Shown here: positions 6,567 through 38,985 of the stretch, in pieces | Layout of the letters: every line of letters begins with the position of its first letter | Position numbering within the stretch: the stretch's first letter is position 1 | NCBI GenBank assembly: GCA_937905845.1 | Contig: CALCYJ010000147.1 | Coordinates: 1-38,985 of the forward strand | Direction: 5' to 3' | DNA from: an uncultured Rhodospirillales bacterium | GTDB lineage: Bacteria; Pseudomonadota; Alphaproteobacteria; Ferrovibrionales; Ferrovibrionaceae | Length of the DNA stretch: 38,985 nucleotides | Position numbers and translations under genes: made by a program | The notes under the pieces: generated by a model | The model's database searches: none | What the model was told of the DNA's origin: nothing | The model's input: the letters and a program-made list of their open reading frames with translations, nothing else

Positions 6567-7260
6567 GCGGGTCCGATCGCTCCTTGGCGGCAGCTTTCCG
6601 GTGCAGATAGGGCGCGGCGGCTCTGGCCATCGAGGCCCGGCGATCCTCGGGCACATCCGGGTCGCGCATCACGGCCAGCATGTAATCGAGCGGCAAGGAC
6701 TGACCCGCCGCCCCGGCGCCTTCGCCACCCTCGCCGCCTTTCGGTGCCGCGACAGAAGGCACGGGCGCGGCCGCAGCGCCATCCGTCCTCCCGGCCACCG
6801 CCCGATCCGCCTTGGACGCCTTGGATGCCTTGGATGCCTTGGATGCCTTGGATGCCTTGGATGCCTTGGATGCCTTGCCCCGCTTCACCGTCGCTTTGGC
6901 GGCCGACGCGGTGCCGGCGGAATCTTTGCCGGCGGAAGCCGGCGCCGGCGCCTTGCCGAGGCGCCGCATCCTGGTCCCCTGCCCGCCCGGCTTCGCCGGA
7001 TCTCGCGCACCCGAAATGTCCGAAATGTCCGAAGCGTCCGAAGCGCTGTCGGTCGCCGCAGCAGCCGCAGCGGCCACGCCGATATCACCAGCGCCGGTCG
7101 GCGCGCCTGGCGTCGGGTCTCGCCCAGCATCGTGCCGGGCATCGCGCGTCGAAGCCTTCGTCCGCCGCGGCCCCGCTTTCCTGGTCACCGCCGCCCGCCT
7201 TCCGGCTGCCGCGACCTCCTGTCCGGAAACGGGATGAAACCGCAGCAGCCCGCGACGCAC
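6454..7260 (-). CDS. Terminase small subunit-like protein with low-complexity KAS repeat tract
   Basis: 268 residues from GTG at 7260. The recognisable part is near residues 185-220, LPLDYMLAVMRDPDVPEDRR...MARAAAPYLH, a segment I associate with small-terminase-like DNA-recognition proteins next to terL in alphaproteobacterial phages. The first 180 residues are low complexity: Arg/Ala-rich, then SDASDISDIS, then seven KAS units, giving a very basic, histone-H1-like tail. No convincing ribosome site precedes GTG 7260, and an ATG at 7277 is in another frame, so the true start could be internal and the low-complexity region partly untranslated. It overlaps terL by 113 bases. Confidence 0.6.
   Translation of the reverse strand: MRRGLLRFHPVSGQEVAAAGRRAAVTRKAGPRRTKASTRDARHDAGRDPTPGAPTGAGDIGVAAAAAAATDSASDASDISDISGARDPAKPGGQGTRMRRLGKAPAPASAGKDSAGTASAAKATVKRGKASKASKASKASKASKASKASKADRAVAGRTDGAAAAPVPSVAAPKGGEGGEGAGAAGQSLPLDYMLAVMRDPDVPEDRRASMARAAAPYLHRKAAAKERSDPHARSAEPAAGAARKTLERKLARLAARSRAAKLPGKPD
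6812..6874 (-). repeat. 9-bp tandem repeat, 7 copies, encoding Lys-Ala-Ser
   Basis: Plus-strand unit TTGGATGCC is repeated six times without change (6821-6874), preceded by one variant TTGGACGCC (6812-6820). Read on the minus strand it encodes (KAS)n in the small-terminase-like protein. The unit is a multiple of three, so copy-number change would lengthen or shorten a basic linker without a frameshift. A second, degenerate 9-bp tract (GAAATGTCC twice, GAAGCGTCC, GAAGCGCTG) lies at 7013-7048 in the same gene. Confidence 0.95.
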
Positions 7261-7285
7261 TCACAATTTTCGATCATGGTGAAAG

Positions 7286-7332
7286 TATATACAGGAACCG
7301 TCCGGTAGTGTCAAGTATAAAATACGTACACT
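7286..7332 (-). promoter_or_regulatory. Consensus leftward promoter of the packaging/structural operon with overlapping palindrome
   Basis: Minus-strand -35 TTGACA (7309-7314), 17-base spacer and -10 TATATA (7286-7291) form a near-perfect sigma-70 promoter firing leftwards into the terminase genes; transcription should start near 7279. An imperfect inverted repeat AGTGT...ACACT (7307-7332) overlaps the -35 and is a candidate operator. The region 7300-7410 is strikingly AT-rich compared with its surroundings. The nonamer TACTTGACA is shared with the Cro-side promoter near 9270. Confidence 0.75.
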
Positions 7333-11528: not shown

Positions 11529-12466
11529 TCGCTAATCCAGGCGACGACGTCTCGCCACACCATGGGCCCGTCGATATCGCGGAAGATCATGTGCCAGCCG
11601 TCGGGGTAATAGGCCAGCCAGTGCGGCCCCGTCATCCGCGCCAGCAGACGCCTGACCGAATCCTCGGGCACGATTTCATCCCAGGCGCCGACCAGAACGA
11701 GAGAGGGCACCGTGACACTGGACCCGTCGGCCAGCGCGCGGCCCATGAGATCGACCAGGCCCGAGACGCTGTCGATGCGCGTTTCCTTGATGACGAGCGG
11801 ATCGCGGCCGAGCGCGCGCAGCATCGGAATATTGTCGGACGCCAGCACGCCAAGGCCGCGCCCGCTCACCTCCCCGCCCGGCAGGAAATGATCGGCCAGC
11901 CACAGCGCCACATGATAGAACGGGTTCATCGCCGCCCCGCCCCAGACGGCCGGCGCCCCCAGCACCACGCCGGCGATGGGCAGCGGCGGCGCACCCCGCT
12001 TCTCGCGATCGCCAAGCGTGGCGAGGATGACGGCGCTGCCCATGCTCTCGCCGAGAAGATAGAGCGGTGTCCGCGGATAGCGCCGGTGCACGGTCGCGAC
12101 GGCATCTTCGAGATCGCGTTCGAGCGCTGCCGTCCCCGGCCACAATCCATGTTCCGGCGCCTGGCCGAAGCCGCGCTGGTCATAGGCGTAGGTGGTCATG
12201 CCCTGGGTGGCGAAGAAGGCCGCCGGCTTGGCAAAGGCGGTGGAATAATCGTTGAACCCGTGCAGCGCGATGATGATTGCCCGCGGCTGGCCGGCGGCGG
12301 GCCAGATCCGCAGCGGCAGCCTGGCGCCGTCGCGGGCGATCAGGACATCGGGGCCGAGCATCGGCCTCTGCCGCACGACTTCCGCCGGCGGCATGAACGG
12401 CGTGCAGGCGGCGAGGATTAGCGCGGCGACAAGCGCCGGGAGCCGTCGGCGGAGCCGCAAGCTCAT
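11423..12466 (-). CDS. Lipoprotein alpha/beta hydrolase (monoacylglycerol lipase-like, S33)
   Basis: 347 residues from ATG at 12466. An N-terminal lipoprotein signal MSLRLRRRLPALVAALILAAC ends in lipobox LAAC with Cys21, so the enzyme is expected to be membrane-anchored in the periplasm or outer membrane. The fold residues are in order: oxyanion LHGFNDYS (69-75), nucleophile GESMG (Ser141), acid VGAWDEIVP (Asp263), and base DGWHM (His292). This is the Hydrolase_4/lysophospholipase pattern; acylglycerol or lysophospholipid esters are the likely substrates. The C-terminal 30 residues are a Ser/Ala-rich tail that overlaps the aminomutase gene on the other strand. The ATG overlaps the stop of a tiny upstream ORF. 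Confidence 0.85.
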   Translation of the reverse strand: MSLRLRRRLPALVAALILAACTPFMPPAEVVRQRPMLGPDVLIARDGARLPLRIWPAAGQPRAIIIALHGFNDYSTAFAKPAAFFATQGMTTYAYDQRGFGQAPEHGLWPGTAALERDLEDAVATVHRRYPRTPLYLLGESMGSAVILATLGDREKRGAPPLPIAGVVLGAPAVWGGAAMNPFYHVALWLADHFLPGGEVSGRGLGVLASDNIPMLRALGRDPLVIKETRIDSVSGLVDLMGRALADGSSVTVPSLVLVGAWDEIVPEDSVRRLLARMTGPHWLAYYPDGWHMIFRDIDGPMVWRDVVAWISDQRTPLPSGDERSTLPSSSSTAGAPDVAASAGAGG

Positions 12467-12603
12467 GCCCCGGCCAACCGGCAGACCGGCCCCATCGCGC
12501 CACCCGCGCCCGCGCCCAAGGCCGCACCCAGAGTCGCGCCCAGAGCCGCACAAAGAGCCGCTCCGGCCGACTCTCCCTCTCCGCTGGTGCCGGACATGCG
12601 CAT
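12463..12603 (-). CDS. Possible small Gly/Ala-rich protein upstream of the hydrolase (46 aa)
   Basis: A 46-residue frame (MRMSGTSGEGESAG..., then repeated ALGA units up to GAGAGGAMGPVC) ends in ATGA overlapping the hydrolase ATG. The Ala-Leu-Gly repeats resemble glycine-zipper membrane segments, and the DNA is made of imperfect 9-bp repeats. No strong ribosome site is seen. The coupling overlap favours a real leader gene; low complexity argues for caution. Confidence 0.3.
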   Translation of the reverse strand: MRMSGTSGEGESAGAALCAALGATLGAALGAGAGGAMGPVCRLAGA

Positions 12604-12792
12604 GGCGCCACCATAAGCACCTTGGCGCCGCGTGACAAATTCAGGCGCGCCGCTCCCGCGAATCCCCCCGATCGCGCCGCCTGGTTGCGCCACCTGGTGT
12701 CCTCCACGAGCCTTGTTTCCGCCTAAATCAAGCGTCACATTCCGCCCATTGGCTTGGCCAAAGCTCGAGCCGCAGACATCAGCAGGCCCATC

Positions 12793-13584
12793 ATGCGACT
12801 TCGCCCCGGTTATTTTCTCGCCCCTGCCATCCTCGCCGGCGCCTGCACGGCGGCGCTGATCGCGGCCGTTCCCGCCCGGGCCGCCGATGCCGAGGCGGGC
12901 GCCACCAACCTCTATCTGCATGCCACCATCCAGGTGCCGGTCGCCCAGGATGTCGTGCTGATCCGCCTGCGCGCGCAGGCGGAAGCAGCCGACCCGGCGG
13001 CGGCGCAATCGGCGGTCAATCTGCGCATGAGCGATGCGCTTGCCACCTCGCGCACCCTGACGGCCGGCCAGGATCCCGCCAGCATGACGGTTTCGACCGG
13101 CGATTACGCCATGTGGTGCGAGCCGCCGTCGCCTGCGCCCAGGACGGAAGCGGGTGCGGAGGCGCATGGGCGGACCGAACCGGCGCGCTGGTGGGCGGCC
13201 GAGACGCTCACCTTGAAGGGCACCAACCTGCCGGGCCTGCTCGATCTCATGGGCGAGTTGCAGAAGAAGGGCCTGATCACCCAGGGCATGCAGTTCCAGG
13301 CCTCCGCCCCCAAGATCCGCGCGGCGGTGGACGATGCGACGACGCAAGCGGTCCTGCGCCTGCGCGAGGAGGCCGGCAAGATCGCGTCCTCGCTCGGCAT
13401 GAGTGTGGTGCAGATCCAGGACCTGCGGGTCGAAGGCACCGGCGAGCCCCGGCCGGTCTTCGCGGCGATGCCGCGGATGATGGCCGCACCGGCCGGCTTC
13501 GCAGCGCCCGTGGCGACGCCTGGTGAAGGCGAGGTCACCGTCACCGTCGCCGGCACCATGATCCTGCACCCGGCGTCGCGTTAG
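12793..13584 (+). CDS. SIMPL-domain (DUF541) periplasmic protein
   Basis: 263 residues from ATG at 12793. The signal peptide is MRLRPGYFLAPAILAGACTAALIAAVPARA with cleavage expected after residue 30. The mature part has the DUF541/SIMPL layout: an N-terminal strand with VPVAQDVVLIRLRAQAEAADPAAAQSAVN, a middle helix-strand block GLLDLMGELQKKGLITQGMQF, ALRLREEAGKIASSLGMSVVQIQDLRV (helix and strand), and the closing VTVTVAGTMIL. Members are secreted, of unclear function, sometimes linked to oxidative stress. An upstream in-frame ATG (12754) would put 13 charged residues before the signal peptide and was rejected. It diverges from the hydrolase gene. Confidence 0.75.
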   Translation: MRLRPGYFLAPAILAGACTAALIAAVPARAADAEAGATNLYLHATIQVPVAQDVVLIRLRAQAEAADPAAAQSAVNLRMSDALATSRTLTAGQDPASMTVSTGDYAMWCEPPSPAPRTEAGAEAHGRTEPARWWAAETLTLKGTNLPGLLDLMGELQKKGLITQGMQFQASAPKIRAAVDDATTQAVLRLREEAGKIASSLGMSVVQIQDLRVEGTGEPRPVFAAMPRMMAAPAGFAAPVATPGEGEVTVTVAGTMILHPASR

Positions 13585-22303: not shown

Positions 22304-23584
22304 ATGACGGAAAAAGGCTTCTTTGACGTGGTGGTGGTGGGCGGCGGCAGCGCCGGGGTCGCGGCCGCTTGCGGTGCTGCCCGCGCCGGCGCCAGAACCG
22401 TGCTGATCGAGCGGGCGGGCTGCCTCGGCGGCGCCGCCACGATGCGCAACGTCCTCACCTATTGCGGCCTCTATACGCTGGGCGAGCACCCGCGGCAGGC
22501 GGTGGCGGGAATTGCCGACGAGGTCCTGGCGCGGCTGCGGCGGATGGGCGGCGTCACCAAACCGCAGCGCCACCGCGGCGTCTTCGTGGTCTTCGACCCC
22601 GAAGCCGTCAAGCGCGCCCTCGACGAGGTTTGCGCGCATGCCGGCGTATCGGTGCTGCTGCATGCTTTCGTCACCGGCGCCGACCGCGTGGCGGGGCGCG
22701 TCACCCGCATCCGCTATCACGATCATTCCGGCGCCCACGAGATCGCCGGCAAGGCCTTCGTCGATGCCAGCGGCGAGGGCGACCTCGCCTTTCTTGCCGG
22801 GGCCGCGACGCGCTATGGCAATCAGGGCGCGGTCAATCTCGGCACGCTCGGCACCCGCTTCGGCGGCATCCCGGCCGAGGTCGAGGTGACGGCGGAACGG
22901 GTGACGGCGGCGGTGCGGGCGGCGCGGACGGCTGGCGTCAAACCCCTCAGCAAGGAGCGGAGCGTCGTCGCGCGCCTGCCGCTTTCGGGCGATCTGATCT
23001 GCTATCTGGCGTCCGAGGATTACGACGCGCGCGAGGCTGCAAGCCTGAGCCGCGCGGAGCGACAGGGCCGCGCGCAGGCCTGGACCTATCTCGAAATCAT
23101 CCGCTCGATCCCGGGCTGCGAGAGCGCCTATCTCGCCGCGACGGGGCCCGAGTTCGGCACACGCGAATCGCGGCACATCGATTCGATCGGCCCCTTGCGC
23201 TGGGCCGAGGTGATGGCGGGGCGACGGGCCGAGGATTGCGTGGCGCTCGGCGCCTGGGGCGTGGAATGGCACGACCGCGCCACCTTCGAGAGCAGCTTCG
23301 CCCTGCCGCCCGAAGGCGGCGCTTACGATATCCCGCTCACCTGCCTGATGAGCGCCGACACGCCGAATCTATTTGCGGCCGGGCGCACGGCCGATGGCGA
23401 CCGCGAGGCCGGGGCCAGCCTGCGCGTCATGGGCACCGCCTTCGCCACCGGGCAGGCCGCGGGCGTCGCCGCGGCGGCACTGGCTGCTGACGGCGCCGTC
23501 GATGCGACCTCCGTGCGGCGGACGCTCCGGGCCCAGGGTGCGATCCTGGCGCCCGAAGACATGCCGCCGCCGGTGCCCGCCTAA
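22304..23584 (+). CDS. FAD-dependent oxidoreductase (FAD_oxidored family)
   Basis: 426 residues from ATG at 22304. It opens with VVVVGGGSAGVAAACGAARAGARTVLIE (dinucleotide-binding GGGSAG at 13-18), then the family segment CLGGAATMRNVLTYCG, and the late motif FVDASGEGDLAFLAG; near the end NLFAAGRTADGDREAGASLRVMGTAFATGQAAGVAA binds the FAD again. These are hallmarks of PF12831 flavoproteins, whose substrates are mostly unknown. It is cotranscribed with the hydroxybenzoate monooxygenase, so an aromatic or related acid is a reasonable guess. Its stop overlaps the convergent transporter stop (TAA/TAG over 23581-23584). Confidence 0.8.
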   Translation: MTEKGFFDVVVVGGGSAGVAAACGAARAGARTVLIERAGCLGGAATMRNVLTYCGLYTLGEHPRQAVAGIADEVLARLRRMGGVTKPQRHRGVFVVFDPEAVKRALDEVCAHAGVSVLLHAFVTGADRVAGRVTRIRYHDHSGAHEIAGKAFVDASGEGDLAFLAGAATRYGNQGAVNLGTLGTRFGGIPAEVEVTAERVTAAVRAARTAGVKPLSKERSVVARLPLSGDLICYLASEDYDAREAASLSRAERQGRAQAWTYLEIIRSIPGCESAYLAATGPEFGTRESRHIDSIGPLRWAEVMAGRRAEDCVALGAWGVEWHDRATFESSFALPPEGGAYDIPLTCLMSADTPNLFAAGRTADGDREAGASLRVMGTAFATGQAAGVAAAALAADGAVDATSVRRTLRAQGAILAPEDMPPPVPA

Positions 23585-24639
23585 ACCGTGGTCACTTCGA
23601 TCTCGTCATAGCGCCGGATGCGGTAGATCACGATCGAACCGATCCAGCTCAGGGCGAAGACGCCGATGATAATATAGCCGAGCGTGCCGAAATTATCGTT
23701 CAGCAGCGAGACCTTATCCCACACCCCGCCCTGAAGGCCGAGCCGGTCGCCGATCAGGCCGAGCGTCTCGATCCCGCCGATGACGACGGCGACGACGACC
23801 GACACGAAAGTGATGGTCATATTGTAATAGAGCTTGCGGATCGGCTTCATGAACGCCCAGCCATAGGCGCCGAGCATCAGGATGCCGTCGGTCGTATCGA
23901 TCAGCGACATGCCGGCGGCGAACAGCGCCGGAAATACCATGATCAGCCACAGCGATGCGCCGTGGGAGGCCTGGGCGGCCGAAATGCCGAACAGGGCGAC
24001 CTCGCTCGCCGTATCGAAGCCCAGGCCGAACAGGAGCCCGATCGGGAACATCTGCCAGCTTCGCGTGATCAGGCGGAACAGCGGCCGGAACAGGCGGGCA
24101 AGAAAGCCGCGGCTGTTCAGCAGCAGATCGAGATCCTCCTCGACAAAGCGCCCGTCGCGCTTCACCGCGAGGAAGGTCCGCCGGACCGAGAGCAGAATGA
24201 GAATATTGGCGAAGGCGATCAGCAGCAGGAAGAACGCCGAGACCGCGGTGCTGATCAGGCCGCCGATATCCTTGAACTGGGAGAAGTGCGATTGCAGCGC
24301 CGTCGCGGCGAAACTGACGCCGATCGACATGGCGAGAACCACGGTGGAATGGCCGAGCGCGAAAAAGAAGCCGACGGCCACCGGGCGCTTGCCCTCCTGC
24401 ATGAGCTTGCGCGTCACATTGTCGATGGCGGCGATGTGATCGGCGTCGACCGCGTGCCGCAGCCCGAACGTATAGGCGAGAAGGGCGGTCCCGAGCAGGA
24501 CCGGATGGTCGTGAAAGACGATGAGCGCCCAGATCCAGATCGCCACATTGGCGACGAAGAGCACGGAATAGATGCCGGCGACCTTGCCGCGCAGGCCGCT
24601 GCCGCTGTCGTTGAAGAGATGAAAAGCCCGTGTCAGCAT
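23581..24639 (-). CDS. NiCoT-family metal transporter, probably cobalt
   Basis: 352 residues from ATG at 24639, preceded by GAGGATCTC. The NiCoT signature RHAVDADHIAAIDN lies at 61-74 in the second membrane segment; FALGHSTVV and LGFDTASEVALFG are the other conserved segments. About eight membrane helices are visible, with a long basic loop after the SVRRTF region. Such permeases import Ni2+ and/or Co2+. The cobalamin riboswitch directly upstream argues for cobalt import for vitamin B12 synthesis rather than nickel. The longer upstream start (24702) lies in the leader and was rejected. Confidence 0.9.
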   Translation of the reverse strand: MLTRAFHLFNDSGSGLRGKVAGIYSVLFVANVAIWIWALIVFHDHPVLLGTALLAYTFGLRHAVDADHIAAIDNVTRKLMQEGKRPVAVGFFFALGHSTVVLAMSIGVSFAATALQSHFSQFKDIGGLISTAVSAFFLLLIAFANILILLSVRRTFLAVKRDGRFVEEDLDLLLNSRGFLARLFRPLFRLITRSWQMFPIGLLFGLGFDTASEVALFGISAAQASHGASLWLIMVFPALFAAGMSLIDTTDGILMLGAYGWAFMKPIRKLYYNMTITFVSVVVAVVIGGIETLGLIGDRLGLQGGVWDKVSLLNDNFGTLGYIIIGVFALSWIGSIVIYRIRRYDEIEVTTV

Positions 24640-24706
24640 GAGATCCTCGCATGCGGTTGACGTCGCGTCACCGCAGGCGACGGCAAAGCCGGAATCCGGC
24701 ATGCCT

Positions 24707-28510: not shown

Positions 28511-29983
28511 TCAGAAGGTAATGTTCGTCCGCAAGCCGAGAATGGCTTCGTTGCCGACCGTGCGCGCCGGATTGTCGGGATCGACAACGCCCCCACCGGG
28601 GTTGAAGACATATTGGAAATCGGGCTGTAGCTGCCACCACGGGGCGAGCTGGATCTGATAGGTCACCTCGATGAACTGCTCGCTGGAGCCGATGGGTGAC
28701 GTATTTCCCGCCGCGGCCGCCTCCTCGCGGTCGAGGGCGCGGGCGGCGCTGCTGATCTCGGCCATGCCGTAACCGATTCCAAACGTGTCGTTATCGCGTC
28801 CCGGCAGCGGCGCCTTCAGGCTCACGCCGGCATCGAAGCTGGCGCTGACGAGGTTGCGATCCGACGGCGCGCCCATGACGCGGGCGAAAAGGCCAACCGC
28901 CTGCGGATCCTTACCTCCCGCGCGCCAGACCATCTGATCGGCCAGGGCATAGACGCTGAAATTGCCCCCCCGCGCGGCGGGGATGCCGTTGCTGTTTGGG
29001 CTGGCGAGCGAGAGGCCGTTGCTGTCGTCCTGCTGATCGGGGAAGGCGGCGGTATCATACCAGACGCCGAGCTTGTAGGTTCCGGGCAGGCCCGAGGGCG
29101 CCGGATCGGACGCGCCGGCCCCGCTCGCCGGCTGATTGACGGCATATTGCAGCTCGCCGATGAAGAGCGCGCCGTTATCGAGGTTGAATTTCACGCCCGC
29201 CCGCTCCGCCCCGCGAAGCTCAGAATCCGCGGCGAAAGGACCGCCCGGCGGATTGTCGTCGAACACGCCGGCCAGCACGCTGACGCTGTCGGTGGCCTGG
29301 ACGTGCAGCCGGATGCCGGGCGCGGAGAGCGGATAGGCCGGCCCGCCGGCATAGAGATCGGCCGCGGGCAGCACGGGCCAGCCCATCGCGGCATTCATGA
29401 ACAGGCTGGAATAGGCGCTGACCATGAATTCCTGGTCGATGCTCTGCTGGCCGACCCGGACATCGGCCTTTCCGCCGGGCAGCGCCTGCTGGTACCAGAG
29501 TTCCCACAGCCGGGTGGAATCCTTGGCCTCGATCCCGCTCGCGGCCTGTAGCGTATCGAGATCGTCCGCGCTCAGATTGCGCCCGTGGATCTGCAAGGCG
29601 CTGAGGTGGAACGTGCCGCCGGTCCATCCCAGCGCCTTTTGCAGGTCGGCGTCGAGGGTCAAGGTCGTCAAACCATCGTACTCGGCGCCCTGACGGGTGC
29701 CGCCGCTGACATTGCCCAAGACCTCGCTCGTCTCCTGTAGACCGAGCGTGATGCCGTATCGGCCGAGCGTGCTGCGCAATCCACCCATGTCGCCGAGCAG
29801 CGTGCTCTGCGTCCACAGGCCGGCGAGAAAGCCGGGTTGCCCGGCCGCCGCGGCATCGCCCGCATCCTGGGCCTGCGCCGCCGCCGGCAGCAGCAGCGCG
29901 GCAGCCGAAAGCGCCGCCGCGCCCAGAACGCCCTGACCGATCCTGGCGGCCGTTCCTGGCCCCCTTGAGCGCCGATTAGGCAT
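28511..29983 (-). CDS. OprB-type porin
   Basis: 490 residues from ATG at 29983; AAGGA about nine bases upstream supports this over the longer frame, and it overlaps the ATPase gene by 8 bases. A signal peptide ends near LLLPAAAQAQDA. The mature protein has the carbohydrate-selective OprB pattern: LGRYGITLGLQETSEVLGNVSGG, FHLSALQIHGRNLS, RLWELWYQQAL, RVGQQSIDQEFMVS, YQIQLAPWWQLQPDFQYVFNPGG, and a final strand ILGLRTNITF ending in Phe, as in outer-membrane barrels. OprB porins usually pass sugars; its place inside an iron-uptake operon suggests it admits a ferric complex or another substrate of this system. Confidence 0.88.
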   Translation of the reverse strand: MPNRRSRGPGTAARIGQGVLGAAALSAAALLLPAAAQAQDAGDAAAAGQPGFLAGLWTQSTLLGDMGGLRSTLGRYGITLGLQETSEVLGNVSGGTRQGAEYDGLTTLTLDADLQKALGWTGGTFHLSALQIHGRNLSADDLDTLQAASGIEAKDSTRLWELWYQQALPGGKADVRVGQQSIDQEFMVSAYSSLFMNAAMGWPVLPAADLYAGGPAYPLSAPGIRLHVQATDSVSVLAGVFDDNPPGGPFAADSELRGAERAGVKFNLDNGALFIGELQYAVNQPASGAGASDPAPSGLPGTYKLGVWYDTAAFPDQQDDSNGLSLASPNSNGIPAARGGNFSVYALADQMVWRAGGKDPQAVGLFARVMGAPSDRNLVSASFDAGVSLKAPLPGRDNDTFGIGYGMAEISSAARALDREEAAAAGNTSPIGSSEQFIEVTYQIQLAPWWQLQPDFQYVFNPGGGVVDPDNPARTVGNEAILGLRTNITF

Positions 29984-31055
29984 TCCCGCGATCCTTCTTC
30001 GCAACATAGGCCATCACATCGCCCTCGACCAAGATTCCGACGGTGTCTCCGGGCCGGGGACTCTGATGTCCGGGCACGAGCGCGGTCAGCGCCACCGGCT
30101 CGCCGCCGCCTGAAAGCGTCAGGCGCACGCTGGCGTTCAACCCGTAATAGGTCACCGTCGAGACCCGCGCCGAGGCGCCCTGCCCCTCATCGCCCGAGAC
30201 CAGGCGGATCTGCTCCGGCCGGATCATGATTTCCACCTCGCCCTCCGGCGCGGCGCCGTTCATCATGCCGGCGCTGAGCGGCAGATGCCCGAGGGTGCAG
30301 CAGACGCGGCCGGCCTTGGCCACGCCCGGCAGCAGCACGGCATCGCCGACGAAACGCGCCAGTTCCGGATCGACCGGATGGCGGTAGAGCCTCTCCGGGC
30401 TCGCGACCTGCACCAGCACACCCTGCCGCAGCACCGCGACGGCATGCCCCATGGAGAGCGCTTCCGCCTGATCGTGCGTCACCAGCAGCGCCGTGGCCCC
30501 CGCCCGGCTGAGCGCCGCCGCCACCGCCTGCCGCGTCTCGGCGCGCAAGGCGGCATCGAGGCCCGAGAACGGCTCGTCCAGCAGCACCATGGCCGGGTTG
30601 GGCGCGAGCGCGCGGGCCACCGCCACCCGCTGCTGCTCGCCGCCTGAAAGCGCCTGCGGCGGGCGGACGCCATAGGCGGCCGGCAGCCCGACCATCTCCA
30701 GCAGCTCCGCCACCCGGTGGCGGGCGCGGCGCTGCGCCCTGGGCAGGCCGAAAACGATATTGTCGGCGACTGAGAGATGCGGGAACAGCGCGCCTTCCTG
30801 CGCGACATAGCCGATATTCCGCCGCTCGGGCGGAACATGCAGGCCCGGGCCCGAGACCATCTTGCCGCCGATGCGGATGCTGCCGGAATCGGCAGTCTCG
30901 AAGCCGCACAGCAAGCGCAGCAGCGTGGTCTTGCCGCTGCCCGAGGCGCCGAGGATGGCGACCAGCCGGCCCGAATCCACGCTCAGATCCACCCCGCGCA
31001 GCACCGGCTCGGGCCCAAAGGCCTTGGTCAGTCCCTGGATTTCCAGCGCGGCCAT
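29976..31055 (-). CDS. fbpC: Ferric iron ABC transporter ATP-binding protein (FbpC-like)
   Basis: 359 residues. Walker A GASGSGKT (36-43), Q-loop AQEGALFPHLSV, signature LSGGEQ (136-141), Walker B MVLLDEP (156-162) and the H-loop VTHDQAEAL are intact. A C-terminal TOBE-like domain (from about residue 240) ends with IRPEQIRLV and VGILVEGDVMAYVA. It energises the permease encoded 13 bases upstream. The length and TOBE domain fit the iron/polyamine (CUT1-like) subclass. Confidence 0.9.
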   Translation of the reverse strand: MAALEIQGLTKAFGPEPVLRGVDLSVDSGRLVAILGASGSGKTTLLRLLCGFETADSGSIRIGGKMVSGPGLHVPPERRNIGYVAQEGALFPHLSVADNIVFGLPRAQRRARHRVAELLEMVGLPAAYGVRPPQALSGGEQQRVAVARALAPNPAMVLLDEPFSGLDAALRAETRQAVAAALSRAGATALLVTHDQAEALSMGHAVAVLRQGVLVQVASPERLYRHPVDPELARFVGDAVLLPGVAKAGRVCCTLGHLPLSAGMMNGAAPEGEVEIMIRPEQIRLVSGDEGQGASARVSTVTYYGLNASVRLTLSGGGEPVALTALVPGHQSPRPGDTVGILVEGDVMAYVAKKDRGNA

Positions 31056-31068
31056 CGGCGCCTTTCCC

Positions 31069-32667
31069 CTAGCTCGCGAAGACCCCGGCGCCGCCGCCGA
31101 AGCGCCGGGCCAGGATCCAGGTGGAGAGGAGGGAGATCGCGGCCATCAGCGCGGCATAGGGCGCGGCCGCCGCGAAAGCCACGGTCGATGTATCGGCCCA
31201 GACCTGCACGGCGAGCGTCCGCGTGCCGATGGGCGCCAGCAGCAGCGTCGCCGTAAGCTCGGTGACGATGGAGACGAACACCATCGCCGCCGCGGCACCC
31301 AGCCCGGGCCCGGCCATCGGCAGCAGAACGCGCCGCACCACCGCCATCCAGCCGAGGCCGAGCGCCCGGGCGCTTTCTTCCAGCCCGCGCTGCGCCTGCA
31401 CCAGGGCCGCGCGCACGCTGACCAGCGCCAGCGGCAGGAACAGGATGGCATAGGCGATGACGAGCAGCGCCGCACTCTGGTAGAGCGGCCGCAGGGCCTG
31501 CACGGTGAGGGAGACGAGCGCCAGCGCCACCACGATCCCCGGCATGCCCTGGGCGAGATAGGCGGTGCGCTCCAGCACGGTGATCAGCCGCCCCTCGTAG
31601 CGCGTGGCGAGAAAGCCCAGCGGCAGGGCCAGAGCGAGCGTCACCGCCGCGCCGGCAAGGCCGAGCAGAAGCGAGGACAAGGTCGAGTTGAAGAGCTGCG
31701 CCGCCGTGACGGCCACGGGCGAGATCGCGGCCGATCCATGCTGCGTCAGCCAATAGAGGATGGTCCCGAGCGGAATGCCGAGCGTGACCAGGATCAGCAG
31801 GCCGAAGCCGGCCAGGACCGGCACGCGCGCCCACCCGAGATCCAGAAATGCGGCCGGCCGGCGGGTGCCGCGCGCCAGGCGGCCATAGCGCGCCCGCCCC
31901 CTCACCATGACCTCGGCCACCAGACACGCGAGACACAGAAGCACCAGGACCAGGGCGAGAAGGGAAGCCTCGGGCCCATTGAAGCCGGTGCGATATTCGG
32001 CATAGATCTCGGTCGTGAAGGTGCGGAAGCGCAACAGGCCAAAGGCGCCGAACTCGCTCAAAGTATTGAGCGCCACCAGCAGCATGCCGCCGAGCAGCGC
32101 CGGCTTCAGCTGCGGCAGCACCACCCGGCGGAAACAGCCCCAGCCGCTCTCGCCCAGCGCCCGCGCCGTTTCCTCCAGCGCCGGGTCCATGCCGCGCAGC
32201 GCCGCGGCGACCGGAAGATAGACGAGCGGATAATAGGCGCTGGTGACCACCAGCAGCGCCCCGGCGAAATCCTGCAACCCGGCGCTGATCGACACCCAGG
32301 CATAGCTGGTAATGAAGGCCGGGATGGCGAGCGGCACCGCCGCCAGAACGGCGAAGACACGCCGCCCGGGCAGGCGGGTCCGCTCGACGAACCAGGCCGC
32401 GGCGGTACCGATGACGGCGGCGGCACAGGTGGTGGCGCCGATCAGGGTGAGGGTATTGAACAGCAGCTCGCCCACCAGCGGCCGGAACAGCAATGCCACC
32501 GCGTCCTTGAGCGTAACCTCGAACGCCTGGAGCAAGGTCCAGGCGAGGGGAAGGAAGACCAGCCCCGCCGCTACCGCCGACGCCGCCAGCAGGCCGGGCG
32601 GCACCCGCCGCCGGACGATGACCACCGGAGGGCGGTCGAGCGATGCTGGCACCGTCCGGGTCGTCAC
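31069..32667 (-). CDS. fbpB: Ferric iron ABC transporter permease (FbpB-like, fused two-domain)
   Basis: 532 residues from GTG at 32667, overlapping the FbpA stop (GTGA). Two homologous permease halves are fused, each with about six membrane helices and an ATPase-docking EAA loop: EETARALGESGWGCFRRVVLP in the first and EESARALGLGWMAVVRRVLLP in the second. This fused form is typical of FbpB/SfuB iron permeases. It moves ferric iron delivered by the periplasmic binding protein across the inner membrane. Confidence 0.92.
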   Translation of the reverse strand: MTTRTVPASLDRPPVVIVRRRVPPGLLAASAVAAGLVFLPLAWTLLQAFEVTLKDAVALLFRPLVGELLFNTLTLIGATTCAAAVIGTAAAWFVERTRLPGRRVFAVLAAVPLAIPAFITSYAWVSISAGLQDFAGALLVVTSAYYPLVYLPVAAALRGMDPALEETARALGESGWGCFRRVVLPQLKPALLGGMLLVALNTLSEFGAFGLLRFRTFTTEIYAEYRTGFNGPEASLLALVLVLLCLACLVAEVMVRGRARYGRLARGTRRPAAFLDLGWARVPVLAGFGLLILVTLGIPLGTILYWLTQHGSAAISPVAVTAAQLFNSTLSSLLLGLAGAAVTLALALPLGFLATRYEGRLITVLERTAYLAQGMPGIVVALALVSLTVQALRPLYQSAALLVIAYAILFLPLALVSVRAALVQAQRGLEESARALGLGWMAVVRRVLLPMAGPGLGAAAAMVFVSIVTELTATLLLAPIGTRTLAVQVWADTSTVAFAAAAPYAALMAAISLLSTWILARRFGGGAGVFAS

Positions 32668-33719
32668 AACAGCCCGGCCTCGCGCAGGAGCGTTGCCGAG
32701 GCCTGGTCGTCGCCAAGCTCCGCCATCGTGATCGCGGGTGGTTGAAGCTGGTCGAAGGGTTTGAGCAGCGGGTTCGCCGGCACGCCGGGCAGCAGCGGAT
32801 ATTCAAAATCGATCTCGCCCCGGGCCAGCATCTCCTGCGCCGGCCGGCTCACCAGAAAGGCCAGAAAGCGCTGGGCGGCCGCCGGGTGTTTCGAGGATTT
32901 CAGCACCGCCACACCCGAGACATTGATCAATCCCCCGATATCGCCGTGGCTGAAATGGTAGATGCGGCTCCGCATCTTGGCGGCGCCGGTTTCGGTGCGC
33001 AGCCGGGCCCAATAATAATTGTTGATGATGCCGGCCGCGACCGAGCCGCGCTCGACCGCCGCCACCACGCCCTCGTCATCGTCGAACACCTGGGCATTGG
33101 CTTTCAGACCCTTCAGCCAGGCGAGTGCGGCGGGCTTGCCGGCACTGACCTCGACCGCCCGGACCAGCGGCAGGAAATCCGCATCCGACGGCGCGATGGC
33201 GATCTTTCCCTTCCATTGCGGCCGGGCGAGATCGGTAAGCGAAGCCGGCAGCGCGCTCTCCCCGATCAGGGCCGGATTGAAGGCCAGCACGTTCTCGCGC
33301 GCCAGGACGCCGAGCCAGTGGCCGTCTTGCGCGCTGAAACGGGCGGGAATCCGCTTCAGCACCGCCGGCGCGACCGGCGCCAGCAACTTTTTCTCGTCCA
33401 GCAGAACCAGTTCCGGGGAATTTTCGACGAAGACCACGTCGGCGGGCGAATAGGCGCCTTCCTGCGCGATCTGGTTCGCGATCTCCGGCCCCTCGCCCTC
33501 GTGCACCCGCACCTTGATGCCGCTCTCGCGGGCGAAGGCGGCGATCAGCCGATCGACCGTCTGCATGTGCTGACCGCTATAGAGTGTCAAGGTCACCGGC
33601 TCCGCCGCGCGGGCCGCGGGCGCGATCAGGCCGCCGGCGCCGACGATAAGGGCCAGCGCCGCCAGGGCCGCGACCCGATCGAAGCGGCGCGGCCGATACC
33701 ATGACCCGCGAGACAACAT
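32664..33719 (-). CDS. fbpA: Periplasmic iron-binding protein (FbpA-like)
   Basis: 351 residues from ATG at 33719, preceded by GGAGGG. A signal peptide ends at APAARA (about residue 38). The mature protein begins VTLTLYSGQH and contains ADVVFVENSPEL and, near residue 230, AGIINNYYWARL with the paired Tyr235-Tyr236 that bind ferric iron in FbpA proteins. It would pass iron to the FbpB/FbpC complex. A Fur-like palindrome lies about 70 bases upstream, consistent with iron-starvation induction of the whole leftward operon. Confidence 0.9.
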   Translation of the reverse strand: MLSRGSWYRPRRFDRVAALAALALIVGAGGLIAPAARAAEPVTLTLYSGQHMQTVDRLIAAFARESGIKVRVHEGEGPEIANQIAQEGAYSPADVVFVENSPELVLLDEKKLLAPVAPAVLKRIPARFSAQDGHWLGVLARENVLAFNPALIGESALPASLTDLARPQWKGKIAIAPSDADFLPLVRAVEVSAGKPAALAWLKGLKANAQVFDDDEGVVAAVERGSVAAGIINNYYWARLRTETGAAKMRSRIYHFSHGDIGGLINVSGVAVLKSSKHPAAAQRFLAFLVSRPAQEMLARGEIDFEYPLLPGVPANPLLKPFDQLQPPAITMAELGDDQASATLLREAGLL

Positions 33720-34034: not shown

Positions 34035-34054
34035 CTGTCGGATTCCTTTACAAA
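34035..34054 (+). promoter_or_regulatory. Shared upstream activating motif, copy 1
   Basis: CTGTCGG-ATTCC-TTTACAAA. The same seven and eight outer bases recur at 35097-35116 around a different 5-base centre. The TGT...ACA ends give it partial dyad symmetry. It ends 60 bases before the -24 element of the PEP-CTERM sigma-54 promoter, a suitable place for an enhancer-binding activator. Confidence 0.65.
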
Positions 34055-34114
34055 AGCCCGTCAATCCCACTCGGCATCGCCTCTAATCCATTGAAATATA
34101 TAGACCCAAAATTC

Positions 34115-34130
34115 TGGCACGCCGCTTGCT
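34115..34130 (+). promoter_or_regulatory. Sigma-54 promoter of the PEP-CTERM gene
   Basis: TGGCACGCCGCTTGCT matches the sigma-54 consensus (TGGCAC-N5-TTGCW) at every key base, with GG and GC correctly spaced. Transcription should start near 34141, giving a leader of about 110 bases before the ATG at 34251. Confidence 0.88.
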
Positions 34131-34250
34131 ATATGTCTCCCGAAGTCGGCGCCAGACACCGATGATGACCCAGGGCAGACGCGGTTGCGGTCTTTGGGAC
34201 GGAAAATCGGGTAGGGAAGCCAAGCAAGTCACAGCCAGATGGAGTTCATT

Positions 34251-34847
34251 ATGTACACCCTCTTGAAGTCGGCCACGGTCGCCCTCGGTCTTGCGCTCGC
34301 GGCCTTTACCGTCGCCCCGGCCGCCGAAGCGCTCCCGCTCATCACCGGCTCGTTTGCTTTCGCCGGCGGGGCTTCGCTGCCTGCGGGTCAGACCCTGCTC
34401 ACCACCAATACGATCGATTTCAGCGGCCTGTTCGCCACGGGCACCGGCATCGGCGATTATTCGACGATCCATTACGGTGATCTCGGCACGATCGTGTCGT
34501 CGCTGACCTTCTCGCCCTTCTCGGGGCCGATCAGCAACTTCCTGTCGATCGATGGCTTCACCTTCTCCCTCAACCAGATCAACGCGGTGTCAACGAGCGG
34601 CCCCTCGTCCGGCCATGGTGAGGACACGCTGACCATCTCGGGCACCGGCGTCGTCACCGACAGCACCCCGGGCCTGTATGCACCGACCGGCGGCACGCTG
34701 ATCATCACTGCCAACGGCACGACCGGCGGCCTGTCGATCTCCTTCTCGGGCACCGCCCAGTCGGTTCCCGAGCCGGCCACCCTGGCCCTGTTCGGCGCCG
34801 GCCTGACCGGACTGGCCCTGACCTACCGTCGGCGCCGCAAGGCCTAA
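34251..34847 (+). CDS. PEP-CTERM sorting-domain protein
   Basis: 198 residues from ATG at 34251; GGAG six bases before it favours this start over ATG 34239. A signal peptide MYTLLKSATVALGLALAAFTVAPAAEA leads to a mature protein rich in Gly, Ser and Thr with few charges. The C-terminus is a standard PEP-CTERM sorting signal: VPEPA (172-176), a hydrophobic helix TLALFGAGLTGLALTY and RRRRKA. Such proteins are processed by exosortase and are usually linked to extracellular polysaccharide or biofilm. No exosortase is in the window. It is driven by a sigma-54 promoter and ends in a strong terminator, so it is monocistronic. Confidence 0.95.
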   Translation: MYTLLKSATVALGLALAAFTVAPAAEALPLITGSFAFAGGASLPAGQTLLTTNTIDFSGLFATGTGIGDYSTIHYGDLGTIVSSLTFSPFSGPISNFLSIDGFTFSLNQINAVSTSGPSSGHGEDTLTISGTGVVTDSTPGLYAPTGGTLIITANGTTGGLSISFSGTAQSVPEPATLALFGAGLTGLALTYRRRRKA

Positions 34848-34886
34848 GCTAAGCTGAACGACACCGACCTGCTGGCTTCTCTATCG

Positions 34887-34921
34887 GCGGCGGCCCTTTA
34901 CCGGGCCGCCGCTTTTCTTTT
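34887..34921 (+). terminator. Strong intrinsic terminator after the PEP-CTERM gene
   Basis: GCGGCGGCCC-TTTACC-GGGCCGCCGC is a perfect 10-bp GC stem with 6-base loop, followed by TTTTCTTTT. Confidence 0.95.
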
Positions 34922-35096
34922 GGCTTTTTTGGCCACGATCGCTTTTCTCCCAGCCTCTGCCGGCGCATGCCGTTCGCTCACAGCGGCTCGCCTGGCGCCA
35001 TCCGGTGCCATCCAAGCCCAAGGACCACGGGCCGATTGGATGGGCTTGATGGATGCCCTGCGCCGACCAGGCCGCGTGTAAGCATTTCATCGCAAT

Positions 35097-35116
35097 CTGT
35101 CGGCGGAATTTACAAA
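35097..35116 (+). promoter_or_regulatory. Shared upstream activating motif, copy 2
   Basis: CTGTCGG-CGGAA-TTTACAAA, identical to copy 1 except in the 5-base centre. It lies 205 bases upstream of the second sigma-54 promoter, within the normal reach of sigma-54 enhancers. Confidence 0.65.
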
Positions 35117-35321
35117 CATCACGAATGACAGGCTGAACCCTGTCCTTTTTCTCCCGCGGAATGAACGGCGCCTGGCCCCCTCCACACGCCGGCCCGCACC
35201 GCGCCGATCGGCTGTAACCTTCGGGTTCTGCCGGTTTTTGCGGCTGCCGCCCCGGTATTTCACCTTCTGAAACCGGGAGTGCGCCCCTTATCGCCTGATG
35301 CCAGATGGAACCGACAATATC

Positions 35322-35337
35322 TGGCACGTCGTTTGCT
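35322..35337 (+). promoter_or_regulatory. Second sigma-54 promoter
   Basis: TGGCACGTCGTTTGCT again fits TGGCAC-N5-TTGCW exactly. It starts a rightward transcript near 35348, before a 53-codon ORF and about 900 bases before the secretion ATPase gene. Confidence 0.85.
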
Positions 35338-35360
35338 TAACGGTAATAGGGGATTGAGTG

Positions 35361-35522
35361 ATGAAGACCAGCGGATCATACGGTCGGAAGCCTCTGCGCC
35401 GCAGGTGCGAAGGCTTGGAGACGCCTGCGGAGAAAAAGCCGCAGGCATTCCGATCGACCGCTGTGCCAGGGTCGCGGCATCGTCTGGATGTATGCAGCCG
35501 CTCCATGGCAGCCGGATGGTAG
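35361..35522 (+). CDS. Possible small basic protein from the second sigma-54 transcript (53 aa)
   Basis: ATG at 35361 comes about 13 bases after the predicted start of the sigma-54 transcript and has a weak purine-rich site (TAGGGGATTGAG) upstream. The product, MKTSGSYGRKPLRRRCEGLETPAEKKPQ..., is basic, with no signal peptide or known domain. A perfect 8-bp hairpin (GCCTGCGG/CCGCAGGC) lies inside the frame, so this may instead be an untranslated regulatory RNA. Confidence 0.35.
   Translation: MKTSGSYGRKPLRRRCEGLETPAEKKPQAFRSTAVPGSRHRLDVCSRSMAAGW
35423..35446 (+). repeat. Hairpin in the second sigma-54 transcript
   Basis: GCCTGCGG-AGAAAAAG-CCGCAGGC: perfect 8-bp stem with an A-rich loop, about 75 bases into the predicted transcript. 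No T-run follows. Three GATTGGC units with 9-base period (35523-35549) and two copies of CAGAGGAGAG-CGGCG (about 35619-35656) lie further downstream. Confidence 0.7.
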
Positions 35523-35798
35523 GATTGGCCGGATTGGCAAGATTGGCCGAACCGGGGTTGATATGAGGATCCGCTTCTGCCGGGCGCCGCGCTAAACGGG
35601 TTGAGCGGCACTATCTCCCAGAGGAGAGACGGCGGGCTCTCAGAGGAGAGGCGGCGAGAGCGAAAAGAGACTTATCGGGTGAGAACGGAGGCGTCGTTCA
35701 AGGTCGGAATCCATTTCTCCCCAATTCCCAGGGCTTGAGGTCCTGGTGCGGTGTGACGGGCCGGCAGAAACGCTGCCCAGCGAGTGTGGAACCAAGAT

Positions 35799-35942
35799 AT
35801 GCGCGACCCGGCCTATCTGAAATACGACTTCGGCAAGATCCGTCGCGATCCGCGGGTACCGCTTCCGGCCGCCCTGCTGTTGTGGTTCGCCGCCGCCGCT
35901 TTATGTTGGTTCGCCATCCTCCTCCTGATCGACTGGCTCTGA
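35799..35942 (+). CDS. Small membrane protein with one helix (47 aa)
   Basis: The frame encodes MRDPAYLKYDFGKIRRDP, then a strongly hydrophobic segment (AALLLWFAAAALCWFAILLLI), ending DWL. The charged N-terminus followed by a single membrane helix and a short tail is typical of bacterial small membrane proteins. A weak GTGGAA site lies upstream. It is on the same strand as, and about 300 bases before, the type I secretion genes and about 450 bases after the second sigma-54 promoter. No family recognised. Confidence 0.55.
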   Translation: MRDPAYLKYDFGKIRRDPRVPLPAALLLWFAAAALCWFAILLLIDWL

Positions 35943-36250
35943 GGATCCTGCCGGCCACGCCCGGGATCACGCGATAGAGAGCCTAAATCCCCGAAAATCC
36001 CCCAGCCTTTCCGACCGAAACATCATCCAGATCAAGCGATTGGGAACGATACCCGAATCGGATGCATCCGGACGCGCGCCCATCCCGCCGTTCCGCAAGG
36101 CGCCCACCGCCGCATTAGGCTTTATTAGCACTCCATTAACGACATTCTGCTAAAAATCGCCCTAATTGTAATGGCGCGGGCGATCGCATCAATCGAGGCG
36201 ATATCTCGAAGGTGAGATCATCGGGCTCTCTACCCGAAGAAGTGAGGGCA
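35943..36250 (+). other. 308-bp gap upstream of the secretion operon
   Basis: No gene seen. An AT-rich stretch (36117-36170) could hold a promoter for the secretion genes, but no convincing -35/-10 pair stands out. Two small inverted repeats lie close to the start: ATCTC-GAAGGT-GAGAT (36203-36218) and TCGGG-CTCTCTA-CCCGA (36221-36237), the second ending about 13 bases before the ATG where it could affect ribosome access. Confidence 0.5.
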
Positions 36251-38200
36251 ATGAGCGAAAATAGCTCAGAACTAAGGGATGTCTTGACATCGTGCCGCTA
36301 CGCATTCGTTACGACGGGTGTATTTAGTTGCTTTATTAACTCTTTACTCTTGGTTTCCCCTCTTTTCATGATGCAGGTCTACGACCGCGTTCTGCCAACC
36401 CGCAATATGTCTACCCTGGTCTTGTTGGCGGGTATCGCCGCCGCCATGCTGCTGGTCATGTCGGGACTGGATATCGTGCGCTCGCGCATTCTGGTCCGGG
36501 TCAGCGCCCAGATCGACGCGCAGCTTTCCGAGCGCATCCTACAGGCGACCTTCGCCTCGGCGCTGGCCAGCAACCGGGGAACCTCCGCCCAGGGCATGCG
36601 CGATCTCGACACGCTGCGCCAGTATCTTGGCGGCAGCGGGCCGCTTGCCTTCTTCGACATACCCTGGTCGCCGATGCTGATCGGCGTCGTCTATATCATG
36701 CATCCGGTCCTGGGCGGCGTCGCCACCGGCGGCGCGCTGGTTCTCTTTTCGCTGGCGCTGGTGAACGAGCTTGCCACCCGCAAGCCGCTCGAGGATGCGA
36801 ACCGCCATTCGGTCGGCATCATCGGCTTCATCGGATCGAGCCTGCGCAATGCCGAAGTGCTGCATGCCATGGGCATGTTCGAGAATCTGCGCAGCCGCTG
36901 GTTCGTCCGCCGCAACCAGATGCTGCGCCTGCAAGCCTCCGCCAGCGACCGGGCCGGACTGATCACCTCGCTCGGCAAGCTGCTGCGGCAGTTGCTCCAG
37001 GTCCTGCTGCTGGCCACCGGGGCCTATCTCGCCGTCAATGGCGCGATCACCTCGGGCGTCATCATCGCGTCCTCCATCGTGGTCAGCCGGGCGCTCGCCC
37101 CCTTTGAAAGCGCGATGAACACCTGGAAGCAGTTCGTCGGCGCCCGCACCGCCTATGCCCGGCTCAACACGCTGCTGTCGATGGCGCCGCCCGTGACGGT
37201 GAAAACCTCGCTGCCGGCGCCGAAGGGCGCGCTGGCGCTGGAGAATATCTTCGCGGTGCCGCCCGGCAGCACCCAGCCCACCCTGCGCCAGCTCAGCCTG
37301 CGCATCCCCGCGGGCCAGGTGATGGGAGTGATCGGACCGAGCGGCGCCGGCAAGACGACGCTGGCCCGCCTGCTCGTCGGTGCCTGGCCGCCCTATTCGG
37401 GCAAGGTCCGGCTCGACGGCGCCGACATCCACCATTGGAACCGCGACGAGCTCGGCCCCTATATCGGCTACCTGCCCCAGGATGTCGAATTGTTCGATGG
37501 CACGGTGGCGGAAAACATCTGCCGCTTCGGCGACCGGCGCGATTCCAAGCCAATCATCGCCGCCGCCAAGCGGGCGAGCGTGCACGAGATGATCCTGCGG
37601 CTGCCCCAGGGCTACGACACCCATATCGGCTCCGGCGGCGCCGCCCTCTCGGGTGGCCAGCGCCAGCGCATCGGACTGGCGCGCGCGCTTTTCGGCAAGC
37701 CGGTCCTGGTGGTGCTGGACGAACCCGCCTCCAATCTCGACGACGAGGGCGAAGCCGCCCTGGTCGAGGCGGTGTCGGAACTCAAGCGCGGCGGCACCAC
37801 GGTCGTGCTGATTTCCCACCGCCCCGAGATCCTGTCCGCGGTGGATCAGATGCTGGTTCTGGCGCAGGGCGCGATCCGCATGGTCGGCCCGCGCGAGGAG
37901 ATTCTGGCCCGTCTTTCGAGCCATGTCGTGAACGCGCCCCAGCCGGTCACCTCGACGCCGGTTGCTGCGACGGCGGCCGCTTCGACGACGATCGGCGCAC
38001 CATCGGCCGCAACCGCGCAGGCACAGGCACAGGCACGGGCACAGGCACCGACGTCCGGCGCCATGGTCCCGCTCAACAAGACGGTGACGCTCACCGGCGG
38101 CGGCGCCTTTGTCACCGCTTCCCCCCATGGCCGAACCGTCGCGCTGCCGGACACCCGTCCGATCGTGCGGCCGGTCGCAACCCGAAAGCTGGACGCATGA
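36251..38200 (+). CDS. Type I secretion ABC transporter (PrtD/HlyB-like, no peptidase domain)
   Basis: 649 residues from ATG at 36251 (GAGGG upstream); a longer frame to 36212 lacks a ribosome site. Residues 15-310 form the membrane domain (SLLLVSPLFMMQVYDRVLPTRNMSTL is a family hallmark). The ATPase has Walker A GPSGAGKT (about 362-369), signature LSGGQRQR (about 466), Walker B VLVVLDEP (about 485-492) and the H-loop ISHRPE. It lacks the N-terminal C39-like domain of HlyB, as in the PrtD group that exports repeat-in-toxin proteins, S-layer proteins and adhesins. The last 75 residues are an unusual Ala/Thr/Gln-rich tail (AQAQAQARAQAP). Its stop overlaps the HlyD start (ATGA). Confidence 0.93.
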   Translation: MSENSSELRDVLTSCRYAFVTTGVFSCFINSLLLVSPLFMMQVYDRVLPTRNMSTLVLLAGIAAAMLLVMSGLDIVRSRILVRVSAQIDAQLSERILQATFASALASNRGTSAQGMRDLDTLRQYLGGSGPLAFFDIPWSPMLIGVVYIMHPVLGGVATGGALVLFSLALVNELATRKPLEDANRHSVGIIGFIGSSLRNAEVLHAMGMFENLRSRWFVRRNQMLRLQASASDRAGLITSLGKLLRQLLQVLLLATGAYLAVNGAITSGVIIASSIVVSRALAPFESAMNTWKQFVGARTAYARLNTLLSMAPPVTVKTSLPAPKGALALENIFAVPPGSTQPTLRQLSLRIPAGQVMGVIGPSGAGKTTLARLLVGAWPPYSGKVRLDGADIHHWNRDELGPYIGYLPQDVELFDGTVAENICRFGDRRDSKPIIAAAKRASVHEMILRLPQGYDTHIGSGGAALSGGQRQRIGLARALFGKPVLVVLDEPASNLDDEGEAALVEAVSELKRGGTTVVLISHRPEILSAVDQMLVLAQGAIRMVGPREEILARLSSHVVNAPQPVTSTPVAATAAASTTIGAPSAATAQAQAQARAQAPTSGAMVPLNKTVTLTGGGAFVTASPHGRTVALPDTRPIVRPVATRKLDA

Positions 38201-38985
38201 GCGCGCGCGCCATGGCGGCCCGGGCGGAGATCGCGCTGCCGACCCGCCCCAAGGACACGAAGCCGGTCGCCACCCGCTGCGGCGGCAGCATTCTCGCCGG
38301 CTGGCTCATCATCCTGGTGGCATTTGGCGGCTTCGCCGCCTGGTCGGTCTATGCGCCGCTCGCAACCGCGGTTCTGGCGCAGGGCACCGTGGTGGTCAAG
38401 GGCAGCCGCAAGACGGTACAGCACCTTGAAGGCGGCATCGTGCGCCAGATCCTGGTCGCCGACGGCGATCACGTGAAGGCAGGCCAGGTGCTGCTCCGCC
38501 TCGACGACAGCCAGGTACGGGCCGATCTGGCGCTGCTCCAGGGCCGTTACGACGATGCCCGGGCCGAGCAGGCCCGCCTCGTCGCCGAGCGCGACGGCGC
38601 CAGCGCCATCACCTTCCCGCCCGACCTCGTCGCCCGCGCCGCCCATGACGGCGAGGCCGCCGCGGCGCTCACCGGCCAGCGCGGCATCTTCACCAGCCGG
38701 CGCAACACGCTCCTGGGCCAGACTTCGATCCTGGAAAACCGCATCGCGCAGTCGAAGGCGGAGATCGCCGGCCTCACCTTGCAGCAGAATTCCAAGGAAC
38801 GGCAGGAAGCGCTGATCAACCAGGAACTGGGCGGCCTGCGCACGCTGCACGCCAAGGGCTACGCCTCGGGCAGCCAGGTTCTGTCCTTCGAGCGCCAGGC
38901 GGCCAGCCTCGATGGCGAGCGCTGCCAGGTCATGGCGACCATCGCCACCGTCCGCGAGGGCAACCGCGAGACCCATCTCCAGATC
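38197..38985 (+). CDS. HlyD-family type I secretion membrane fusion protein, partial
   Basis: 263 codons are open to the right edge. A cytosolic N-terminus is followed by one membrane helix (about residues 31-53, ILAGWLIILVAFGGFAAWSVYAP) and the family segment VVKGSRKTVQHLEGGIVRQILVADGDHVKAGQVLLRLDDSQ (68-106), the lipoyl-like hairpin. The region after 106 is a long helical hairpin (AEQARLVAERDGA, RNTLLGQTSILENRIAQSKAEI). It bridges the inner-membrane ATPase and the outer-membrane channel. It is translationally coupled to the ATPase gene (ATGA). A secreted substrate gene is not visible. Confidence 0.93.
   Translation, partial: MSARAMAARAEIALPTRPKDTKPVATRCGGSILAGWLIILVAFGGFAAWSVYAPLATAVLAQGTVVVKGSRKTVQHLEGGIVRQILVADGDHVKAGQVLLRLDDSQVRADLALLQGRYDDARAEQARLVAERDGASAITFPPDLVARAAHDGEAAAALTGQRGIFTSRRNTLLGQTSILENRIAQSKAEIAGLTLQQNSKERQEALINQELGGLRTLHAKGYASGSQVLSFERQAASLDGERCQVMATIATVREGNRETHLQI

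Follow-up and report, generated by a model that had tools for sequence, protein, structure and literature searches.

PEP-CTERM surface proteins are tied to slime-making in many bacteria. Haft et al. (2006, PMC1569441) found that PEP-CTERM genes of proteobacteria are preceded by a "motif 1" of 17 nt, which has TTTACA at its end and is sometimes repeated, and that a sigma-54 "motif 2" follows it after 62.8 ± 10.6 bases (range, 32 to 92). By phylogenetic profile, motif 1 matched PrsR, PrsK, and PrsT; those authors proposed it to be the site of PrsR and also mentioned a small number of sites in front of other genes (PMC1569441). In Aquincola tertiaricarbonis, whose genome carries prsK/prsR/prsT, the PEP-CTERM gene pepA is RpoN1 dependent and has a mapped −24/−12 promoter with a predicted upstream enhancer (PMC9850573). 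Here, we report two probable copies of the PrsR box, each followed by a sigma-54 promoter, in an uncultured bacterium.

The window (the whole stretch of DNA analyzed, 38,985 nt, contig C147 of its genome) was scanned for the gapped motif CTGTCGG-N5-TTTACAAA, which was found on the plus strand at 34035-34054 (copy 1, CTGTCGGATTCCTTTACAAA) and 35097-35116 (copy 2, CTGTCGGCGGAATTTACAAA), with no further match at up to 3 mismatches. Perfect TGGCAC-N5-TTGCT sigma-54 sites follow on the same strand at 34115-34130 (promoter 1, TGGCACGCCGCTTGCT) and 35322-35337 (promoter 2, TGGCACGTCGTTTGCT), 60 and 205 bases, respectively, from the end of TTTACAAA; the original prediction, made from the letters of the window, had given all of these positions, the strand, and both spacings exactly. 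It had also given the motif 15 fixed bases, which is true of both window copies, whereas the first C and the final AA that these two copies share are not conserved at other sites, leaving TGTCGG-N5-TTTACA (17 bases, 12 of them fixed) as the real core. The cores of box 1 (PEP-CTERM box, motif 1; 34036-34052, plus strand, TGTCGGATTCCTTTACA) and box 2 (35098-35114, plus strand, TGTCGGCGGAATTTACA, the second-best box score in the window) lie 62 and 207 bases before their sigma-54 sites, measured from the end of TTTACA.

Shuffled sequence gave a mean of 0.31 motif matches with up to 3 mismatches (vs 2 in the window), and a first-order Markov model predicted approximately 0.0005 exact cores per window and 0.04 per genome, where 2 and 7 were found; a reversed-pattern control gave 0 in the genome. 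The two copies might be chance resemblances near two sigma-54-like sites, as a 12-base core can turn up randomly in large genomes and at least one copy occurs in 41 of 223 genomes of the class without PrsK. This explanation, which the original prediction had already thought improbable, is contradicted by the expected numbers, by the reversed control, and by the match to a published motif with the correct spacing and gene class, and we regard it as extremely improbable.

Copy 1 agreed with motif 1 in its 17-nt length, its TTTACA end, its sigma-54 spacer of 62 bases (within 32 to 92), and the PEP-CTERM gene downstream. The match to motif 1 refers to length, TTTACA end, and spacing, the TGTCGG half having been compared via the genome-wide sites and not via the published logo. 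Judged by these features, the window motif is the known published element in another genome and not a new one. The shared motif had been put forward as a candidate PrsR binding site, which our analysis supports; because motif 1 and its assignment to PrsR were published in 2006, the proposal is a rediscovery and not a fresh one.

The gene behind promoter 1 (34251-34847, plus strand; open reading frame [ORF] openable from 34239) encodes a PEP-CTERM surface or exported protein with a signal peptide and a VPEPATLALFGAGLTGLALTYRRRRKA tail (TIGR02595, 27.5 bits vs a cutoff of 16; PF07589, 28.7 vs 20.7), and an intrinsic terminator (34886-34913, plus strand; 11 pairs, T tail) closes the single-gene unit. 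Homologues of this protein in public genomes were limited to one weak, tail-only match. Promoter 1 would drive this gene, as had been predicted for one of the two promoters. Adjoining the gene on the minus strand is an ABC uptake cluster (29976-33719) resembling 2-aminoethylphosphonate/iron transporters (best models below cutoffs), and a NicT-type nickel transporter is encoded at 23581-24702.

The window's genome is 3.49 Mb long, in 374 contigs, and 88% complete. Profile searches found EpsB_2, PrsK, PrsR, and PrsT in a row on contig C222, every one above its curated cutoff (EpsB_2, 506 bits vs 393; PrsK, 677 vs 300; PrsR, 669 vs 502.6; PrsT, 717 vs 312), and one RpoN (430 bits vs 277), so that PrsK, PrsR, and RpoN, all named by the original prediction, are encoded, along with PrsT. 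For the exosortase (EpsH), a fragment of 47 residues was found where contig C116 breaks off, and this truncation keeps it below cutoff. Contig C222 also encodes an RTX calcium-binding-repeat protein (12262-13344, cut by the contig end), which follows prsK-prsR-prsT and a glycosyltransferase.

A genome-wide scan located the 7 exact cores and their one-mismatch variants. A box with a sigma-54 site precedes PEP-CTERM genes on contigs C31, C67, C125, C147 (the window), and C242 and twice on C311, making at least seven such genes with one-mismatch boxes included, at box-to-sigma-54 distances of 51 to 106 bases. The matches are linked to sigma-54 sites and PEP-CTERM genes, rather than randomly placed, in a genome that carries prsR, which is the outcome that the original prediction had anticipated from such a scan; its "local" regulon is indeed a PEP-CTERM regulon but a genome-wide one. 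On contig C67, two exact boxes in tandem, 21 bases apart (7049-7086), face a degenerate sigma-54-like site, and the ORF behind them (7215-7322) ends right after its signal peptide and looks like a decayed member of the regulon. Nearby on the other strand (6048-6768) is a PEP-CTERM gene that has a box to itself and a perfect sigma-54 site.

Across genomes, the core tracked PrsR and PrsK, in line with the predicted link to this two-component system. Among 31 related genomes, it was present in 6 of the 7 with PrsR above cutoff versus 1 of the 24 without PrsR (Fisher P = 6 × 10−5), and among 241 genomes of the class it was present in 12 of the 18 with PrsK (61 sites) versus 41 of the 223 without (55 sites; P = 3 × 10−5), both P values overstating independence, as the genomes are related. 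One PrsK-positive genome (G129) contained 27 copies. Another (G029) has PrsR, PrsK, and exosortase above cutoff, yet lacks both an exact box and a TIGR02595 match; its box and sorting tail may have diverged. PrsR boxes of relatives (L173, L178, L193, L195, and others) are often paired, 125 to 231 bases apart, with the proximal copy 62 to 86 bases from the sigma-54 site. In one of these loci (L193, contig G018:C26, 347-1521), a pair of boxes with a sigma-54 site precedes an exported-type protein that is not a PEP-CTERM protein, and a short protein also behind the boxes resembles a PqqD-like chaperone (by eye), which suggests PrsR targets beyond PEP-CTERM genes.

From the motifs, promoters, genes, regulator genes, and co-occurrence observed here directly, we infer PrsR binding and activation, as well as the target of the second promoter. 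With a probability of approximately 0.9, the two copies serve as enhancers in the already known control of PEP-CTERM genes by PrsK-PrsR and sigma-54, copy 1 driving 34251-34847 and copy 2 belonging to the same regulon, directed toward prtD-prtE or left over. PrsK would presumably activate PrsR, which would bind TGTCGG-N5-TTTACA and, once bound, open RNA polymerase-sigma-54 at the downstream TGGCAC-N5-TTGCT promoter. Copy 1 would thereby turn on the PEP-CTERM protein, and copy 2 would work through a longer loop (207 bases); promoter 2 would most likely read rightward to prtD-prtE or be the leftover of a lost PEP-CTERM gene. The PrsR/RpoN mechanism of the original prediction thus appears right, to judge from the regulator genes, the PEP-CTERM-linked matches, and the cross-genome link.

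Copy 2 combines a perfect core and a perfect sigma-54 site with an untypical box center and a 207-base spacing, outside the published 32 to 92; a search for a closer, degenerate box before promoter 2 found none there. No PEP-CTERM gene was found behind copy 2; this and the atypical spacing qualify the predicted regulon at its second copy. Relatives G129 and G018 have PEP-CTERM genes headed by a lone box with a spacer of 165 or 198 bases to the sigma-54 site, and the distal copies of paired boxes lie 188 to 296 bases upstream; these distances make a PrsR enhancer that would act over 207 bases credible.

The predicted transcript leader of promoter 2 (35346-36250, plus strand) is mostly noncoding, and no ORF with a strong coding signature was found over the first 900 bases downstream of the promoter. 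Possible small ORFs on the plus strand (35361-35522 and 35784/35799-35942) were not supported by relatives. A small membrane ORF (35784-35942) was rejected as the real target, having no homologue in 60 relatives, as was a structured leader RNA (z, −0.44), and an Rfam scan of these 900 bases gave nothing above threshold.

Beyond the leader, approximately 900 bases downstream of promoter 2, begins a type I secretion operon, recognized by an adjacent TIGR01842 permease/ATPase and TIGR01843 adaptor. Its first gene, prtD (36251-38200, plus strand; TIGR01842, 719.9 bits vs 510), is the candidate target of promoter 2, and prtE (38197-38985, plus strand) encodes an HlyD-type adaptor subunit matching the first half of its profile (TIGR01843, 184.5 bits vs 208.65), the gene being cut off by the contig end. 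RTX-repeat proteins are the usual kind of type I secretion substrate, and the RTX-repeat protein of contig C222 is a possible substrate for this operon.

Copy 2 may control prtD-prtE via the long leader, coupling RTX export to the exosortase/exopolysaccharide program, a reading to which we give somewhat less than an even chance. No strong terminator and no plus-strand sigma-70-like site were found between 35346 and 36251, no clear gene comes between the promoter and prtD, and an RTX-repeat protein within the genome's own prsK-prsR-prsT cluster makes the functional link attractive. However, a leader of approximately 900 bases is long, neither a box nor a sigma-54 site was found upstream of the orthologous or related prtD genes of five other PrsR-positive genomes, and the surroundings of approximately 50 other boxes, many of them cut short by contig ends, yielded generic ABC ATPase matches but no type I secretion gene. 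As the target of copy 2, prtD-prtE is thus plausible, without support from relatives. It seems to us unlikely that PrsR directly controls the operon from a distant box through a leader of 900 bases, which would switch on RTX protein export at the same time as exopolysaccharide and the surface proteins sorted by exosortase.

An equally good reading, also held tentatively, makes copy 2 an orphan promoter whose PEP-CTERM gene has been lost or has decayed, its transcript idle or adding to prtD by chance. PEP-CTERM genes vary and are present in large numbers, no gene of clear coding signature was found within 900 bases downstream of the promoter, and the tandem boxes on contig C67 face an ORF stopping just after the signal peptide. 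At a locus of another genome (L182, contig G206:C9, approximately 460-1080), an apparently broken PEP-CTERM gene lies behind a box and a perfect sigma-54 site, an example of how promoters can outlive their gene. Against loss or decay, copy 2 has no mismatch in either its box core or its sigma-54 site, a state that would not last long in a decaying promoter, and no recognizable remnant of a PEP-CTERM tail was found in the leader when read by eye.

The PrsR box proved a reliable marker of the PEP-CTERM regulon, confirmed here in an uncharacterized member of the class. The findings suggest that PrsR can act at distances of 165 to 200 bases and above, compared with a published maximum of 92, and if copy 2 does drive the secretion operon, the regulon would widen beyond exosortase substrates.

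Of the known systems, the closest is that of Haft et al. (2006), with which this locus shares the 17-nt box ending in TTTACA and a sigma-54 site approximately 62 bases downstream (copy 1), the single-gene PEP-CTERM unit with a long upstream region, the presence of prsK-prsR-prsT, and repeated boxes. It differs in copy 2, which is spaced at 207 bases (published maximum, 92) and has no PEP-CTERM gene behind it. With A. tertiaricarbonis pepA it shares a PEP-CTERM gene, a −24/−12 promoter, a predicted upstream enhancer, and prsK/prsR/prsT in the genome; RpoN dependence was shown by experiment there and is predicted from sequence here, and with 32.6 bits against a cutoff of 80 the window protein does not qualify as PepA. 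With NtrC-type enhancer-dependent sigma-54 promoters in general, the locus has in common the GG/GC −24/−12 element and a distant activator site, but the activator box here is the specific PrsR one.
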